Shown: piece after piece, positions 52,317-61,461 of the stretch
Layout of the letters: the number at the start of each line of letters is the position of its first letter
Numbering within the stretch: position 1 is the first letter of the stretch
Assembly (NCBI GenBank): GCA_019090455.1
Contig: JAHRWA010000039.1
Span: forward strand, 62,001-126,000
DNA: 64,000 nt
Direction: 5' to 3'
Source of the DNA: Pseudomonadales bacterium
GTDB taxonomy: Bacteria; Pseudomonadota; Gammaproteobacteria; Pseudomonadales; DC-out160
Translations under genes and position numbers: made by a program
Notes under the pieces: model-generated
The model's input: only the letters and a program-made list of their open reading frames with translations
Told to the model about the DNA's origin: nothing
The model's database searches: none

Positions 52317-55112
52317 TTACCTTTCCGCTGTTAGCGAAATCTTAGGTTTCCAGCGCAACCATTCTTTTTTAACTTCATCGTGTAAATCAAACCGCACGCC
52401 GCTTTCTACCGCACCGCCCATCTTGTTATTATTCGGCGTAGCGAAGGCTATTCCACCCTCAAGAATGGATTCGAATGAATCCGTTTCAATGCTTAAGCCC
52501 TCGAACAAACTGAAATCAACCCCGACTCCACTCGCATTCCAGAAGTGAGTATTCTCTCTAACCAACATTTTGTATGCCGGTAGTATGCTCAGATGTATCA
52601 GCACTTTATCCGCCGTTTCACTCAACTCATATCCCGTGACGCTACCCACTCGAATTTGACGATAATACACACCCACACCCTCTTTAACCGAACCGAGTCG
52701 CGGAGCATACAGACTGACTTGCAGTGCATTTTCATCCTGACTGATGACGTCATGGGGGGCAGAATTCAACCCTTTGAACTCATGCCTAGCCATGCCATCT
52801 CCCGCCATCACAGCGATATATTGGCCAGAAACCAGCGTGTCCAAGTCAGATGTTGCTGCCAACCCAAAACGAGGTTCAACAATCCAAAATCTTGCACTAT
52901 CATTAGCCAGTTGTTCCGCCTGCGGGTATATCAAAACCGTCACTTTGACTTGTTGTAATCCCTTTTCAAAAATCACTTTTTTCACTTTACCAACCGTGAC
53001 ACCCTTGTAACGAAGATCTGATCCCGAGTGCAAACCACCAGCCGATTTAAAACCAATTTCAATCTGTAAACCTTTCTCATGTGCCTCATCAAAACCATCA
53101 AATAAACGGTAGTTATCTCCATTGACTGCGGGTGTTGCCTCGTCGGAATCCGCATTATCAAATTCCGCATTATCAAAGGTGATGCCACCCGCCATAATCG
53201 ATAAAAGGGATTCCGCTCTGACTTTAATACCAGACAATCCACCTGTAACTGTCACACCGCTGGAATTCCAAAATTGCGTATTCTGTCTGACGAGATAAGC
53301 ATATTCCTCGTCAATCAGCGCGAAAATATCAACACCTTCCTCATAGTCTTCATCTTCAACACCATCACTTTGACCATGGCTAGAACGAAGCCGGAAATCC
53401 GTCACTTCACCCACGGGTACTTTCCGGTAAAACAGCTTGGTGCCGACATTGACAGATCCAAGCACCTTCGCGTTGAGCACAATATGCAAACCGGGGCTGG
53501 TCAGTTTCACCGGCGGTGGCGTATCGAGGGAATAAAAACTCCGCGTACTCTCGCCCCCACCGACTCTCATCGTAATATAACTACCCCCCACTATAGTATC
53601 CAGCCCCTTAATTTCAGTTAAAGCCACTCGGGGAGAGACTAACCAAAACTCAGTTTTCTTTTTTAGGCTTTTTTCTATCAGCGGATCAACAGCGACTGTT
53701 ACCTTGATGGGGTAGCTACCTTTGTCCAGCTCTACCTTTTGCACTTTGCCAACAACCATCCCTTTATGCTTAATTTCGGTCTGTCCCTCGATGATGCCAT
53801 CGGCTTTTTTAAAATAAATAATGGTCAGCAAACCCACATCGGCACTGTCAAAATCCTCATGTAATTGATAACCATGACCATCTTCAACAGAACCTCCGTC
53901 ACCCTGGAATCGAGCAGGCGTATGAAATGCAATCCCGCCTGAGACTATCGATGCGATAGACTCCGTTTGCACCTTCAGTCCAGACAATCCGCCCGAGACG
54001 CTAATGCCAGAGACATTCCAAAAGCGAGTTTCAGGTTTCACCAAATGAGCGAACTGTTTACGAATGCGCACATGAATATTAACGCCCGTCTCCTGCTCAT
54101 TGAGCTCATAGGCATAAACTTCGCCCACCGGTATTTTACGATAATAAATCTTACTGCCTTCTGAAATCGAAGATAAACTCTCACTCTGCAAAACCACATG
54201 CAAATGGTTCGGGTCATTCAATTGTGAGCTACTTTGCAGACCACTGGATTCATAATCGGCATACAAACGAAAAATATCACCGTTGCTGGATACAGCTGTT
54301 AGTTTGCCCGGTCCTGTTCCGCCATTAAGTGGAGTTTCAAAAGAAATTCCACCAGTAATAATGGACACCATAGATTCCGCTTGCACTTTAATCCCAGACA
54401 AATCGCCGGATACGGAAATACCACTACTGTTCCAAAAACGGGTATTTTGGTTAACCAACTTTGCGTACTGTTCTTTGATACGCAGATAGACTTGCACACC
54501 ATCGCCTTTTTCATTCAATTCAAAGTTCTTAACTTCGCCTACGGCAATTTTTCGGTAATAGACGTTAGTGCCTTCCGCGATTGAGTTTAAGCTATCCGCA
54601 TCTAAGCGAAGGTGTAAACCCGGCGAGGTGGCGTCTAGAGGTGGCGCGGTATTGAGGGCAACAAATTTAGAGGCGTTTTTACCCTCCCCCGGTTGCACCG
54701 CGATATAGTTACCTGACACAAGTGCATCCAGCCCAGACACACCCGACAGAGAAATCTGGGGCTGCACCAGCCAAAAAACAGAATCCCTTTTTAATAATGA
54801 GGTGGCATTTTTGTCAATGTTCGCTTTGACCGTAATACCTCTTAAATCTTCATTGACAGAGATTTCAGTGACCACTCCAACAGGCAAACCTTTGAACATG
54901 ACTTTGGTAGATCCTGCTTCTATTCCGTCACCACTTTCAAACTGTATGGTGATATCCACACCGGCATTGGTAACACTCTCATAAAGAATAAAAGCGCCAA
55001 TGAAAACCGCGATCAATGGAACAAACCATATTGGAGAAAAATAATCTCTCTTCACCAAGACCACATCGCCCAGGGCCTCTTCTTGTTCTTGAGTTAAGGG
55101 TTCTTTATGCAT
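52317..55112 (-). CDS. letB: Seven-MCE-domain intermembrane transport protein LetB/PqiB family
   Basis: 931 residues: short cytoplasmic start, one transmembrane helix (about 26-46), then seven MCE (MlaD-like) repeats, each opening with a strand such as LHLRLDADSL or LTIIYFKKADG and containing a YYRKIxVGEV- or KGxxVGKV-type core. Seven repeats equals E. coli LetB (YebT), which forms a hexameric tunnel across the periplasm for lipids. The alternation of YRK-type and KG-type repeats is clear. The ATG follows the letA second-half stop immediately. The region near 53149 has a short coding tandem duplication. Role: lipid movement between inner and outer membranes. Confidence 0.92.
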   Translation of the reverse strand: MHKEPLTQEQEEALGDVVLVKRDYFSPIWFVPLIAVFIGAFILYESVTNAGVDITIQFESGDGIEAGSTKVMFKGLPVGVVTEISVNEDLRGITVKANIDKNATSLLKRDSVFWLVQPQISLSGVSGLDALVSGNYIAVQPGEGKNASKFVALNTAPPLDATSPGLHLRLDADSLNSIAEGTNVYYRKIAVGEVKNFELNEKGDGVQVYLRIKEQYAKLVNQNTRFWNSSGISVSGDLSGIKVQAESMVSIITGGISFETPLNGGTGPGKLTAVSSNGDIFRLYADYESSGLQSSSQLNDPNHLHVVLQSESLSSISEGSKIYYRKIPVGEVYAYELNEQETGVNIHVRIRKQFAHLVKPETRFWNVSGISVSGGLSGLKVQTESIASIVSGGIAFHTPARFQGDGGSVEDGHGYQLHEDFDSADVGLLTIIYFKKADGIIEGQTEIKHKGMVVGKVQKVELDKGSYPIKVTVAVDPLIEKSLKKKTEFWLVSPRVALTEIKGLDTIVGGSYITMRVGGGESTRSFYSLDTPPPVKLTSPGLHIVLNAKVLGSVNVGTKLFYRKVPVGEVTDFRLRSSHGQSDGVEDEDYEEGVDIFALIDEEYAYLVRQNTQFWNSSGVTVTGGLSGIKVRAESLLSIMAGGITFDNAEFDNADSDEATPAVNGDNYRLFDGFDEAHEKGLQIEIGFKSAGGLHSGSDLRYKGVTVGKVKKVIFEKGLQQVKVTVLIYPQAEQLANDSARFWIVEPRFGLAATSDLDTLVSGQYIAVMAGDGMARHEFKGLNSAPHDVISQDENALQVSLYAPRLGSVKEGVGVYYRQIRVGSVTGYELSETADKVLIHLSILPAYKMLVRENTHFWNASGVGVDFSLFEGLSIETDSFESILEGGIAFATPNNNKMGGAVESGVRFDLHDEVKKEWLRWKPKISLTAER
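53149..53178. repeat. 15-bp in-frame tandem duplication inside letB
   Basis: TCCGCATTATCAAAT and TCCGCATTATCAAAG in tandem; on the minus strand this doubles the peptide FDNAE/FDNAD in a variable linker between two MCE domains. The length is a multiple of three, so the frame is kept. Confidence 0.9.
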
Positions 55113-55790
55113 TTACTTTCCTGTCACTTCAGCAGATTTCTCATCTTGCCAGATTAGTCGCGAATCAAAACTCTCCGCCGCCAACATCGTTAATATCACC
55201 ACAGCAGCGAAAAACGTAACACCGATTTCAGCCTCCACCAGCGCGATATTTCCCATATTAACCATTGCCAATAGCACTGCCATCACGAAGATGTCCAGCA
55301 TGGACCACCGCCCAATGAATTCGACAAAACGGAATAAAAAAAGCCGTTGCCTCTTTCCTTTTAACCATTGAAAGTGCACCGCCATCAGCAGATAGATCAT
55401 GGAGGTAATTTTAAACACAGGCACAATAATACTGGCAATAAAAATCAGAGTCGCAATAAAATAAAACTGGTGATCTATCAAGCGAACAATACCAGAATAA
55501 ATGGTATCAGCGTCTTTATCGCCCAACTCAGTAACGGAAGTAATGGGAAACAAATTAGCCGGAATAAGTAAGATGAAGCCGGCAATCAGGTACGCCCAGG
55601 TTTTTTGTAGACTGTATTTCTTTAAGTAATCGACTTCCTGCCCACAACGACTACAAATACTTTTATAGTCCTTCGGAATATCGTGATCCGTGTGATGATT
55701 GAGTTTATGACACAAATGACACACGGCTAACTGCTGATCTCGGGCGTTTGTGTTGGCGTTGACGTCAGTGTTCATGCCAAACGCGCCCAA
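55113..55790 (-). CDS. LetA/PqiA second half (zinc-ribbon plus four-helix membrane domain)
   Basis: 225 residues if it begins at the TTG at 55790, or 220 from the ATG at 55775. A zinc ribbon (CHLC and CSRCG) is followed by about four membrane helices with GFILLIPANLFPITS, the PqiA domain. In E. coli LetA two such units form one protein; here it is the second of two adjacent genes, 6 bases apart and in the same frame as the first. It would work with LetB in lipid transport. The start codon is uncertain because neither candidate has a strong ribosome site. Confidence 0.85.
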   Translation of the reverse strand: MGAFGMNTDVNANTNARDQQLAVCHLCHKLNHHTDHDIPKDYKSICSRCGQEVDYLKKYSLQKTWAYLIAGFILLIPANLFPITSVTELGDKDADTIYSGIVRLIDHQFYFIATLIFIASIIVPVFKITSMIYLLMAVHFQWLKGKRQRLFLFRFVEFIGRWSMLDIFVMAVLLAMVNMGNIALVEAEIGVTFFAAVVILTMLAAESFDSRLIWQDEKSAEVTGK

Positions 55791-55796
55791 CGTAGA

Positions 55797-56555
55797 TCAA
55801 TCATACAGATTCCTATCCAGCTTGCGCCAGACCTGGGATGTATCCAGTGATATCGCAGAAAGTAAGCTCATGAGCAATAAACCCACCAGAGCATAAAAAC
55901 CACTTCCAAAAGTCACTTCTGCATCATCCATTAATTTCAGGCAAGTCAGCAAAGTACCCAATAGATAGATTTCCACCATACTCCAAGGCCTTAGTTTAAC
56001 CTGGAGCTTAAATAAATTGATTGCGACAGATAAACCGGCATTCAATTTAATGCACAGCAACACCACCACAATTAGGAATAGCTGAATCGCGGGTATCATA
56101 ATCGCAAAAAGAAAGACCAGCGCACCGACACCCACAAAGCCTGTTTTCGCTAACTGCAATGCGCCAGAAAGAATAATCCCTTCCTGCTCTCTGCCTATCA
56201 TACTCATCGATAATATGGGTAAGGTGTTTGCAGGGACAAAGAAAACCAAACCTGTCAACGCGAGGGCCAAGGCACGATTAAGTGAGTCTTTTTTATTATG
56301 GTACAAAGAACTCGCACAACGCGGGCATTTAGCAACACCGCCCTGGGGGATGGCTGATTTTTTTAGCAGTAAATCACATTGGTGACAGGCGACTAATTGC
56401 GAGTCAATGTGCTGTACTGGGCTATCACTCGAGCTATCACTAATAGGAAGTATAGAAGTAGTAGAAGCGCCAGGATTAGAAGTGTGGGTGTCAGACGAAT
56501 TAATGTGAAACCACCCTTGATAAAATGCTGCGAACTGATTGCAAATAGATACCAT
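55797..56555 (-). CDS. LetA/PqiA first half (zinc-ribbon plus four-helix membrane domain)
   Basis: 252 residues: a low-complexity Ser/Thr-rich N-terminus (about 20-48), a zinc ribbon (CHQC and CPRCA, about 57-80), then a PqiA domain of four helices with GLVFFVPANTLPILSMS. Together with the next gene it equals a full LetA. It heads the minus-strand letA-letA-letB operon. The stop TGA (55799-55797) and the next gene lie in one frame with only two codons between. Confidence 0.85.
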   Translation of the reverse strand: MVSICNQFAAFYQGWFHINSSDTHTSNPGASTTSILPISDSSSDSPVQHIDSQLVACHQCDLLLKKSAIPQGGVAKCPRCASSLYHNKKDSLNRALALALTGLVFFVPANTLPILSMSMIGREQEGIILSGALQLAKTGFVGVGALVFLFAIMIPAIQLFLIVVVLLCIKLNAGLSVAINLFKLQVKLRPWSMVEIYLLGTLLTCLKLMDDAEVTFGSGFYALVGLLLMSLLSAISLDTSQVWRKLDRNLYD

Positions 56556-57445: not shown

Positions 57446-58036
57446 ATGCTCACTGACAGCAGTGAACTATACTTACCCCTAACACTGTCTTGGTTTTTAG
57501 GGTCGACGATAAAAAGGGGACAACATATGTCACGGGCACACTCAAAAGGAGTTTCTACTGGCCCGTCGTCACCTAGCGGCCCCTATGATGCCGCGCTAAA
57601 AGCAATACGAAAGGGCTACCAAGCCTTTAATGCAGCCGAATCAATACCCCCATCGGGAATTCAAACCCTCAGTTGCACAGCCAAGCTTTATTACACGAAT
57701 AACAATATCACCAGTACTGTTGCGGGTGTATCCAACAATGGCGTACATGCTGAGATGGATGCATTAAAGCAATTTTATGTGGGCACCTGTCATTACAATG
57801 ACCACGCTTTTAGCAGCGTGACATTACAGATGGAATCAGGCCCTCTACCCTGCTGCATACGCTGTGCTGCCGTCTGTGGATTATTGGGGGTCTTCGCGAT
57901 GCCAAACACGCATAAAACACCCACCTCGATGGGGACAGCTCAATGGCAATTACCCGATGACTTGGCACAGTTGTTGGCAATAAAAACCGGCGAGAATAAG
58001 TTTCTGTACCAACAGTTTGGGTCCGTTATTATATAA
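57446..58036 (+). CDS. Deaminase-superfamily-like protein (HAE and PCCxxC motifs)
   Basis: 196 residues from the first ATG (GGAGG four bases upstream), or 169 from the ATG at 57527 (AGGGGA upstream); both are plausible. H101-A-E103 (GVHAEMDAL) and PCCIRC at 135-140 match the zinc-binding and proton-shuttle motifs of the cytidine-deaminase-like fold, with spacing (about 35 residues) typical for it. I cannot name the family. There is no signal peptide, immunity partner or toxin-delivery domain next to it, so a nucleotide- or metabolite-deaminase is at least as likely as a toxin. It is probably co-transcribed with the DUF938 gene. Confidence 0.65.
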   Translation: MLTDSSELYLPLTLSWFLGSTIKRGQHMSRAHSKGVSTGPSSPSGPYDAALKAIRKGYQAFNAAESIPPSGIQTLSCTAKLYYTNNNITSTVAGVSNNGVHAEMDALKQFYVGTCHYNDHAFSSVTLQMESGPLPCCIRCAAVCGLLGVFAMPNTHKTPTSMGTAQWQLPDDLAQLLAIKTGENKFLYQQFGSVII

Positions 58037-58186: not shown

Positions 58187-58299
58187 GCGCGTCGATTAAC
58201 ACCAGTGAAATGCTTTCAACGCCTCTAAATCCGCAGCTAAAGAACCGCACCTAAAGGTATGTGTTTGAGGATAGGCATTCACACTTAGAGAACAAAATA

Positions 58300-59346
58300 A
58301 TGAATCCAGCAATACCCCAGCAAAACCATGATAAGAAAATTGCAATATGGCTACTTATATGTGCGGCTGTGATTTTTTTCATGATAATACTGGGCGGTGC
58401 AACTCGACTCACCAATTCGGGCCTGTCCATGGTTGAATGGAAACCCATAGTCGGCGTCATTCCACCTCTCAGCGAATTGGCCTGGCAAGAGACTTTCGAT
58501 AAATACAAGAATTTTCCAGAATACCAACAGGTCAATATCGATATGTCACTTGATGCGTTCAAGGCCATATTCTATTACGAATATTTTCATCGCATATTGG
58601 GTCGTTTGATTGGATTGCTTTTTCTACTGCCATTTATGTACTTCTTTTTCCGAGGCATGATCAAAAAGCCGCTGGTTCCTCGCTTGCTTGTGATGTTTAT
58701 TTTGGGGGGCCTTCAAGGTCTGCTAGGCTGGTACATGGTCAAAAGCGGTCTAGTGAAAGACCCTCATGTGAGCCAATATCGATTGACGGCGCACCTCACT
58801 GCCGCTGTTGCGATCTATGTCTATATATTATGGGTGGCATTCGGCTTACTCATCATCAAAACAGACGCTACCTCCCATCGACGCCTATACCGATATGGAG
58901 TCGGTTTGATATCGCTAATTATCTTAATGATCATGTCCGGTGGCTTCGTGGCGGGCACACGCGCAGGGTTAGCTTACAATACTTTTCCGTTAATGAATGG
59001 CGCTTTCATTCCCCCTAACTTATACGCAATGGAACCTGTCTGGCTTAATTATTTTGAGAACATCACCACCATACAATTTAACCATCGAATGATCGCTTAT
59101 CTTTTGATACTGGTGATTCCGCCCTTCTGTGTCCTGATTCGGCAAGTGACCAAGACGAAACGTCTACAAAGAACTGCTGCGGTTTTCATGGCCATGCTAG
59201 CAATCCAAATTACCTTGGGCGTTAGTACACTGCTAGCATCAGTTCCTGTGACGCTCGGTGTATCTCACCAGGGCGGCGCTATTATCTTGTTAACCATTGC
59301 CGTTTTTATTACTCGTGATCTCAAACCATCGATTACTGCCCATTAA
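58300..59346 (+). CDS. ctaA: Heme A synthase (CtaA/COX15)
   Basis: 348 residues from the ATG at 58300 (the frame opens earlier with a GTG but that extension is not membrane-like). Eight hydrophobic helices; the signature GGATRLTNSGLSMVEWKP follows helix 1, and His residues in YEYFHRILGR, LTAHLTAA, FNHRMIAY and GVSHQGGA are the heme ligands of the family. It converts heme O to heme A for cytochrome oxidase. The gene overlaps nothing; SCO follows after 16 bases. The partner heme O synthase (ctaB) is not in the window. Confidence 0.92.
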   Translation: MNPAIPQQNHDKKIAIWLLICAAVIFFMIILGGATRLTNSGLSMVEWKPIVGVIPPLSELAWQETFDKYKNFPEYQQVNIDMSLDAFKAIFYYEYFHRILGRLIGLLFLLPFMYFFFRGMIKKPLVPRLLVMFILGGLQGLLGWYMVKSGLVKDPHVSQYRLTAHLTAAVAIYVYILWVAFGLLIIKTDATSHRRLYRYGVGLISLIILMIMSGGFVAGTRAGLAYNTFPLMNGAFIPPNLYAMEPVWLNYFENITTIQFNHRMIAYLLILVIPPFCVLIRQVTKTKRLQRTAAVFMAMLAIQITLGVSTLLASVPVTLGVSHQGGAIILLTIAVFITRDLKPSITAH

Positions 59347-59362
59347 AAACAGGACACTCCTC

Positions 59363-60094
59363 ATGGAACCCAGCGCGCAAACAGACAGACCTAGGAATAA
59401 CTCTGGTAGACTAAAGAACAATTCTGGCAAATTTGCTGTCATCGGCTTTGTGACCATGACGATAATATCGATAGGAGTATTGTTCTTATTTAAAAATGCG
59501 AGCCTGCCAAGAATCTCAGCTTTACCCGTTATGGATACCATTGGCGGTGAATTTGAACTACCAAGCTCTCTCGACAAGCCCGTCAAACTTTCCGATTTTA
59601 GCGGTACAGTACTCATGATCAATTTTGGTTTTACCAGCTGCCCAGATGTTTGCCCCACAATATTAAGTCGGTTAGCCAAAATCTCAAAAATTCTCAAGAA
59701 TCAACGCGGATTCGATAAAACGAAATTACAAACGCTTTTTATTACCACCGATCCTGAGCGTGATGATGCAAATCAATTAGCACAATATCTTACCCATTTT
59801 CATCCCGACTTTATCGGTCTTACCGGGAGCGCAGAAGCCATCAAACAAGTCGCCAAGCAATACGGCGTATATTATCAAAAAGACACCTCCATCCAAACTC
59901 CTGCTGAGAATGAAACTGCGGCCTATAACATGTCGCATACGGACAAAATTTACCTACTCGATAAGCTAGGCCGAATTCGAAAGCTCTACAGCACAGAGAA
60001 TTCTCTCGACGAAATCATTCTTGATATTCGGGGCCTCGTTGCAGAGATACACCCATCCTTAGATCAAGCACCCTTAAAATCAGAGGTTCAATAG
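59363..60094 (+). CDS. SCO1/SenC-family copper-insertion protein
   Basis: 243 residues from the ATG at 59363, with AGGA upstream; the longer frame overlaps the heme A synthase gene. One membrane anchor (about 26-44) precedes a thioredoxin-like periplasmic domain with the CxxxC copper site C93/C97 (SCPDVCP) and the third ligand His in MSHTDKIYLLD near residue 197. It delivers copper to, or reduces, the CuA centre of cytochrome oxidase. The stop shares one base with the next gene's GTG. A polar run of repeats (RNNSGRLKNNSGK) precedes the anchor. Confidence 0.93.
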   Translation: MEPSAQTDRPRNNSGRLKNNSGKFAVIGFVTMTIISIGVLFLFKNASLPRISALPVMDTIGGEFELPSSLDKPVKLSDFSGTVLMINFGFTSCPDVCPTILSRLAKISKILKNQRGFDKTKLQTLFITTDPERDDANQLAQYLTHFHPDFIGLTGSAEAIKQVAKQYGVYYQKDTSIQTPAENETAAYNMSHTDKIYLLDKLGRIRKLYSTENSLDEIILDIRGLVAEIHPSLDQAPLKSEVQ

Positions 60095-61461
60095 TGAACA
60101 CCACTCCTTCTTCTGCAAGCCTACAACTGAATTTACCCAACCCTCCCGCCCAACGCATAGCCTCCACGTGGCTCATGTTAGGCGTTGCCTCGCTGTTAGC
60201 GGCTGGCGTGTTTTCCATTTTGTTAGTGTTATCACGTACGCCGGCAATCCAAGAGGTCATCCCATTTATCGATTTCTTTCACGTTTCGTTGGTCGTGCAT
60301 GTTGATCTATCGGTGTTGATTTGGTTTATGTCTTTTGCCTGCGTGTTATGGAGCCTCATCGGTGATGGCAAGCAAGTTTTTTGGGATAAAGTCGCTCTCG
60401 GGCTAGCCATGGCAGGCACCGCGATCATAGTCACTGCTCCTTTTGTAGGGGTAGGGAATCCCCTGATGAATAATTATATCCCGGTTCTCGATCACCCTCT
60501 TTATCTCCATGGACTGGCCATTTTTATTCTCGGCCCAATTTTACTTGCCTTAAAAACCGTGTTCACCTCCCAGCCTAATTTTTTAGCGCAATCGGGATCT
60601 GACGCCTTAAAGGTGGGAATATATTTAGGTGCACTCGTATTTCTAGTATCCATCCTTTCTTTAGCCGTATCTTATTCTGACATTCCTGCCAATTTAACGG
60701 GACGAGCCTACTACGAAGTCTTGTTCTGGGGTGGTGGCCATGTTTTACAATTTACCCACACCGTTCTCATGTTAGTAGCTTGGATTTGGATCGCCAATGC
60801 GACCGGAGCAAACATCAATTTGCCCCCTAAACTAGCGGTCACATTATTCATTTTAGTTATCGCACCGGTGGCAGCCACACCCTGGATATACAGTCAATTT
60901 TCAGTGAACGCGGTTGAACACCGCTTGGCATTTACGGATTTTATGAAGTTTGGTGGCTTAACCTCCCTCCCTTTAGGATTAATTACCGTCATAGCAATAC
61001 TACGCTCCGAACGAGCACCAGCTGATAAACGGGCAGTGAAGGCCGCAATATATTGCTCGATAATACTGTTTGCTGCGGGTGGCATCATTGGATTTTTGAT
61101 AGAAGGCGTCAACGTGGTCATCCCTGCTCACTATCACGGCTCCATTGTCGGCGTAACATTGGCCTTTATGGGGCTCACCTATCACTTATTTCCTCAATTA
61201 GGCTTTGGCAGTCCGAATACCAAAATGGCTCACATCCAACCTTACGTATATGGCAGTGGACAACTCTTACATATTCTGGGACTGGCCTGGTCAGGCGGTT
61301 ACGGAGTACAACGCAAAACCGCCGGTGCCGCTCAAGGCTTAGATCAACTACCTCAAGTGGCGGGCATGGCCATGATGGGACTCGGCGGATTAATCTCTAT
61401 TATTGGTGGATTGCTCTTTTTTATCGTGGCACTCAAGTGTTTGAAGCAGAGAAGAAATTAA
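60094..61461 (+). CDS. Heme-copper-oxidase subunit I superfamily protein, atypical
   Basis: 455 residues with about twelve helices; GTG start preceded by AGAGG. Heme His candidates: H69 (VVHVDLSV, helix II) and H346/H348 in PAHYHGSIVGVTLAFMGLTYHLFP, matching the helix X HxH of oxidases and NO reductases. H216 in WGGGHVLQFTHT may be the helix VI CuB His. The helix VII His-His pair expected for CuB is not seen; APVAATPWIYS stands in its place. It may be a variant with altered or no CuB centre. It is coupled to SCO and heme A synthase; no subunit II follows in the window. Confidence 0.8.
   Translation: MNTTPSSASLQLNLPNPPAQRIASTWLMLGVASLLAAGVFSILLVLSRTPAIQEVIPFIDFFHVSLVVHVDLSVLIWFMSFACVLWSLIGDGKQVFWDKVALGLAMAGTAIIVTAPFVGVGNPLMNNYIPVLDHPLYLHGLAIFILGPILLALKTVFTSQPNFLAQSGSDALKVGIYLGALVFLVSILSLAVSYSDIPANLTGRAYYEVLFWGGGHVLQFTHTVLMLVAWIWIANATGANINLPPKLAVTLFILVIAPVAATPWIYSQFSVNAVEHRLAFTDFMKFGGLTSLPLGLITVIAILRSERAPADKRAVKAAIYCSIILFAAGGIIGFLIEGVNVVIPAHYHGSIVGVTLAFMGLTYHLFPQLGFGSPNTKMAHIQPYVYGSGQLLHILGLAWSGGYGVQRKTAGAAQGLDQLPQVAGMAMMGLGGLISIIGGLLFFIVALKCLKQRRN

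Follow-up and report, generated by a model that had tools for sequence, protein, structure and literature searches.

What would a protein built like the catalytic subunit of a heme-copper oxidase (HCO) be kept for, once the copper part of its active site has gone? The question is raised by a gene, here named ORFQ, in a stretch of 64,000 nucleotides from a Pseudomonadales bacterium (assembly GCA_019090455.1, contig JAHRWA010000039.1, positions 62,001 to 126,000), which we call the window. An earlier note, drawn up from the letters of that window, had taken the gene for an oxidase subunit I homologue apparently deprived of its CuB His-His pair, and had proposed a heme-binding sensor, an assembly factor or a novel oxidoreductase. 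The ORFQ family appears, from its sequences, to be a distinct and widespread group of HCO subunit I paralogues that lost the CuB site while keeping both heme sites. As to function, our leading reading, which we put forward tentatively, is that ORFQ is a two-heme paralogue devoid of CuB that partners the heme A synthase CtaA and oxidase assembly as a heme acceptor or carrier, its heme binding being predicted; a role in assembly or in heme handling, of either kind, is the broader claim that we hold to be probable.

Membership of the superfamily is the first step of the argument. ORFQ matches PF00115 (COX1) at 43.4 bits, for a curated cut-off of 34.8, and this is its sole Pfam match at E ≤ 1, so that the SURF1 family PF02104 gives none at that threshold; no NCBIfam family matches it. 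All 42 members of homologue set A1 match PF00115 at E ≤ 0.001. An AlphaFold model built on 42 homologues has 12 long helices and a mean pLDDT of 89.9, and it superposes (VIA-align) on A-type, ba3 and cbb3 oxidases and on nitric oxide (NO) reductase with Z values of 28-30 over some 400-420 residues, level across HCO types. The comparison with cbb3 oxidase and NO reductase that the earlier note had called for thus gives a full-length HCO fold, and ORFQ is an HCO subunit I by sequence and by predicted fold. A search of the PDB with the single sequence brought chance matches only (Ninjurin, a leucine-rich protein) and was set aside; with the family profile, only B-type oxidases came up at E ≤ 1 (Thermus ba3, 7deg, the latter entry being, we assume, a B-type oxidase). 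The family profile aligns with that of NorS at an hhalign E value of 3.7e-34, and the closest relatives among those tested are, on this profile evidence, the catalytic subunits of sNOR-like (B-type) clusters, to which we gave the name NorS by their resemblance to published sNOR clusters, without a named reference sequence. A tree that retains 78 of 117 rows after a cut at 72% identity sets the ORFQ homologues apart from NorS with full SH-aLRT support, SH-aLRT being its only measure of support and its backbone partly open. The first ORFQ branches are two genes of Nitrospirae, one whose context was not seen (locus L044) and one that adjoins CuA and NorS genes (L046).

The loss of the copper site carries the case. 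We collected 128 unique homologues, and leaving out 11 partial ones from residue counts left 117. Helix VII of the model contains no His at all, and its columns show a His-His pair in none of these 117 full-length homologues, as against six of six NorS controls in the same alignment. The place of the lost pair falls at residues 261-262 in the profile alignment to ba3 and at 266-267 in the hhalign alignment to NorS (both counted by hand), or at 265-266 with MAFFT; none of these residues is His in the window protein. The three alignments disagree by a few residues, which makes the register of the pair uncertain, not its loss. At residue 266 the family has Tyr in 41 members, His in 28, Phe in 18, and L, V, A, Q or P in the others: some members retain a single His in helix VII, none the pair. 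Only one of the three CuB ligands is left, H216 of helix VI. The position four residues after that His, presumably the one that holds the polar residue of the active site, is F220 in the window protein and Phe in 98 of the 117. In HCO enzymes this polar residue is Y, E, N, Q or D according to type (PMC8756737). Lacking the three-His site for a second metal, ORFQ is by this mark no HCO enzyme, and the missing pair, judged by the alignment, is a trait of the family rather than a one-off.

The earlier note had seen the absence of the pair correctly, and it had named H276 as a residue that might take over at the CuB site; this is His in only 43 of the 117 homologues, hence not a fixed ligand. An active O2 or NO reductase with a rebuilt metal site, made for example of H216 together with the Tyr or His found at residue 266 in 41 and 28 homologues, would be a way to rescue catalysis, yet that residue is variable, the pair is nowhere present and the polar residue of helix VI is mostly Phe, and we consider such an enzyme most improbable.

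While copper ligands were lost, heme ligands were not. Residues H69, Y128, G215, H216, Q219, S322, H346, Y347, H348, R407 and K408 are invariant in all 117 homologues, and M284 is identical in 116. H216, H346 and H348 lie where the earlier note had placed them, and the helix II His that it had mentioned is H69. By homology, the ligand set of both hemes is kept, H69 and H348 for the low-spin heme and H346 for the high-spin heme, while R407-K408 corresponds to the two arginines that hold the heme propionates in oxidases. Compared with the copy of a congener, the gene has a dN of 0.138 for a dS of 2.7, a value near saturation. A frameshift or a pseudogene was considered and ruled out, the frame being intact in both members of the genus and dN far below dS. 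Kept ligands and low dN mean that this is not a decayed oxidase; ORFQ is a copper-less protein under constraint, and probably one that bears heme. The positions of these features are collected in the table.

Table. Features of the ORFQ locus, in positions of the 64,000-nucleotide window.
Feature	Position	Strand	Support
ORFQ, HCO subunit I-like protein without CuB, 455 aa, 12 transmembrane helices	60094..61461	+	
Codon of H69 (helix II), predicted ligand of the low-spin heme	60298..60300	+	117/117
Codon of H216, helix VI, sole CuB-type His kept	60739..60741	+	117/117
Helix VII, residues 245-268, no His at the place of the CuB His-His	60826..60897	+	model and alignment
Codons of H346-Y347-H348 (helix X), the two His being predicted ligands of the high-spin and the low-spin heme	61129..61137	+	117/117
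Codons of R407-K408	61312..61317	+	117/117
SCO1/SenC copper/thiol chaperone gene	59363..60094	+	PF02630, 136.6 bits
CtaA/COX15 heme A synthase gene	58261..59346	+	PF02628, 366.6 bits

What company does such a protein keep? In the window the order is CtaA-SCO-ORFQ (context D in our classification), and the GTG start codon of ORFQ shares one base with the TAG that ends the SCO gene. As the earlier note had remarked, SCO and CtaA are directly upstream, and the Pfam scan of the window's open reading frames finds no gene for a COX2-like or CuA subunit II 3' of ORFQ. The genome has two more subunit I genes, each at about 530 bits, which are A-type by our reading, and it has no NorS. A tblastn search against plasmids gave no match to ORFQ. 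Other features of the neighbourhood may be noted for themselves. Just 5' of CtaA, an open reading frame of 196 aa (57446-58036) without Pfam match is conserved in the congener (L004, L083). Further upstream, on the minus strand, 52317-56555 encodes one large protein and two membrane proteins, which we presume to be of the MCE type and PqiA-like, respectively. Outside the window (G000:C29:9944-10252) there is a fragment with a weak likeness to CtaA; it contains two stop codons, scores under the curated cut-off and is possibly due to chance.

This arrangement is one of several found in what we call type 1, as distinct from a sister clade, type 2. Our sample holds 56 type-1 loci, one of them (L173) from the sample of the window's order and the rest from the phylum sample; few families supply the many carrier sequences, so that these loci are not independent events. 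In 28 of them CtaA is no more than 200 bp from ORFQ, on the same strand and 3' of it in 16 and divergent in 12; widening the distance to 5 kb raises the count to 31, and at this distance 38 loci show at least one of CtaA, CtaB, SCO, CoxA, NorS and DUF420. For all 109 type-1 loci, a set that includes the biased homologue set and short flanks, the latter figure is 79. In context A, found in beta- and gammaproteobacterial and other genomes, the order is CuA-NorS-(CtaB)-SCO-cytochrome b/FeS/FlpD-p180-ORFQ, so that these relatives do have a gene for a CuA subunit. In context B, A-type cox operons end with CtaA-CtaB and ORFQ is convergent and abutting (L068, L071, L074, L077), with a variant where cox operons lie nearby (L037, L011). 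In context C, ORFQ is directly 5' of CtaA on the same strand, with a gap of -34 to +14 bases measured between stop-to-stop frames, or divergent from it. In context E (L110, L143, L144), an ABC transporter pair and DUF420 come after ORFQ. The differing orientations of CtaA in separate clades suggest that its link with ORFQ came about, or was reshuffled, on more than one occasion.

The sNOR-like clusters have features of their own. They encode, as at L041:3933-5480, a fused protein of cytochrome b-ferredoxin-FlpD type, then a protein of about 180 aa without Pfam match, which may be an unusual electron input. Helix VI of their NorS (L041:462-2198, L042:4154-5671) reads GH(S/T)SQQIN, a Gln taking the place of the Tyr or Glu of other HCO enzymes.

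One could understand ORFQ as an extra subunit, non-catalytic or dedicated to electron transfer, of the oxidase or sNOR complex encoded nearby, and early branches that directly adjoin CuA-NorS (L042, L043, L046; also L047) would fit that view. Yet in A-type contexts ORFQ and the cox operon converge, or ORFQ is paired with CtaA in loci where CoxA is not in the fetched stretch (L104, L124), and the window genome is without NorS, all of which makes us regard this explanation as unlikely.

The type-2 clade was assigned from the tree and from context. It comprises 18 rows of the tree (SH-aLRT 99), in which one member on a very long branch, L047, was counted as type 1 for its NorS context. The cluster that houses a type-2 gene has ResB, CcsA, paired-CXXCH and C7 cytochromes and an NHL-repeat lipoprotein, and in most cases CcsA immediately precedes that gene; of 16 sampled loci, 14 have CcsA at 200 bp or less, and no locus among all 19 has CtaA, CtaB or SCO within 5 kb. 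In L111 the frame continues, after the oxidase-like part, into a TPR domain, and in L109 a separate TPR gene adjoins the type-2 gene. Such clusters of multiheme cytochrome, ResB, CcsA and CuB-less HCO-like genes are seen at L111:4814-11384, L118:119-8253 and in relatives. A membrane sensor of gas or redox state, based on heme, might exploit an open heme site with distal His and Gln, which would suit NO, O2 or CO. The neighbours, however, are biosynthetic genes, type 2 has TPR as its additional domain, and neither a signalling domain nor a regulator turned up, though no systematic search was made for them; we think a sensor very unlikely.

How, then, is the family distributed with respect to known assembly factors? 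The phylum sample has 398 genomes, 276 of them with CtaA. Among its 58 positive genomes (G387 being left out of the positives, as its sole match is NorS-like), a type-1 gene is present in 54, and CtaA accompanies it in 53 of those, as compared with 276 genomes out of 398 for the sample as a whole (manual tally); three of the four positive genomes without CtaA (G356, G391, G410) have type-2 genes only (manual tally). SURF1 gives the sharpest pattern: among CtaA-bearing genomes, an ORFQ gene is carried by 51 of the 58 without SURF1 and by 3 of the 218 with it, leaving 7 and 215 non-carriers, respectively (Fisher p 5e-44, kinship being ignored). A divergent SURF1 could escape the search model, one non-carrier without SURF1 (G413) is 57% complete, and in G373 the CtaA match is at E 1.2e-4 and the carrier match partial.

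It is this pattern, together with the recurrence of CtaA, CtaB, SCO and DUF420 near ORFQ in A-type cox settings as well as in sNOR-like ones, that makes the assembly factor the best supported of the three options of the earlier note; the sensor found no support, and the oxidoreductase lives on as the supply of electrons to CtaA discussed below. Several facts weigh on the other side. Eighteen of the 56 type-1 loci have no marker gene within 5 kb. The early ORFQ branches adjoin NorS, so that the family may have begun as a component of the sNOR machinery. The 51 carriers without SURF1 are clumped in 11 family codes, of which at least two, f82 and f86, both large, are Magnetococcales. In the order of the window, SURF1 is present in 12 of 15 tested carriers and in 17 of 19 tested non-carriers: ORFQ is there an addition, and strict replacement of SURF1 has to be rejected for that order. 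Finally, 222 of the 276 genomes with CtaA have no ORFQ gene, which must therefore be dispensable in general.

We may nevertheless sketch how a carrier would work. ORFQ would reduce neither O2 nor NO, and would act with CtaA, CtaB and SCO in the biogenesis of oxidases of the heme A type, and of sNOR-like ones. Imitating subunit I minus its copper site, it would take heme from CtaA on the periplasmic side, hold it on H69/H348 and H346, and hand it on to the apo-oxidase, in a role akin to that proposed for SURF1. Type 2 might have a comparable task next to CcsA/ResB, which together act as cytochrome c synthase. Of the readings that cover heme sites, lost copper and neighbour genes, a protein handling heme for oxidase assembly is the simplest; the heme, its identity and the direction of its transfer are predictions.

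The main rival, which fits almost as well and which we rate as rather unlikely, makes ORFQ a redox partner, a two-heme b-type cytochrome that feeds electrons to CtaA for hydroxylation of heme O, with type 2 keeping heme reduced for CcsA/ResB. CtaA and CcsA/ResB, the very neighbours of the two types, both need reductant; both heme sites are kept, type 2 accompanies multiheme cytochromes, and the sNOR-like clusters include their cytochrome b-FeS-FlpD protein. Plain electron transfer, on the other hand, makes a high-spin site with a kept distal His-Gln unnecessary, the same 222 genomes manage CtaA without ORFQ, and no quinol site was found, though no search for one was made.

Returning to the heme carrier, we may push it further and see the oxidase core as turned into a general relay of heme on the periplasmic side, with type 1 going from CtaA to the apo-oxidase and replacing SURF1 in whole lineages, and type 2, partly with TPR, loading multiheme cytochromes c with CcsA/ResB; this we offer as a doubtful generalization. 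The transfer of heme A from CtaA to cytochrome oxidase has long been a gap in the field, and a conserved, CtaA-linked, copper-less copy of the acceptor where SURF1 is not found makes the question of its delivery directly testable. A practical consequence is that PF00115 matches need a check of their CuB ligands before they enter a count of terminal oxidases or NO reductases.

It remains to set the family among known systems. Literature searches of open-licence PMC papers found none that describes it. Two papers bear on its proposed role: one states that the route of heme A to subunit I is unknown (PMC9145763), and the other infers a route independent of SURF1 (PMC5249081). With the subunit I of sNOR and B-type enzymes (NorS; norY in PMC6967387) and with ba3, ORFQ shares fold, heme ligands, Y128, Q219 and W230, Gln being found at the position of Q219 in six of six NorS. 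It differs from them in having no CuB His-His, F for the polar residue of helix VI, K408 for the second Arg, an invariant Y347 and a near-invariant M284 in its family, some 120 fewer residues, and, in the window, no CuA subunit gene next to it. The Nitrosomonas norSY-senC-orf1 cluster, as portrayed in excerpts of PMC4940428 and PMC3764937, has an order of oxidase, senC and further open reading frame that resembles context A, a likeness at the level of description. A deranged COX1-like protein of Acetobacter, located beside CtaB and without any metal-cofactor residues according to an extract of PMC10715153, offers a parallel, being related to subunit I, deprived of a functional metal site and kept beside a heme-synthesis gene, whereas the ORFQ family keeps every heme ligand, as far as this comparison by description goes. 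SURF1, for its part, would be matched in role, since ORFQ is proposed to hold heme A and to work with CtaA, and the two are near-exclusive across the phylum sample, while ORFQ comes from an unrelated family, its Pfam match being to PF00115 only.
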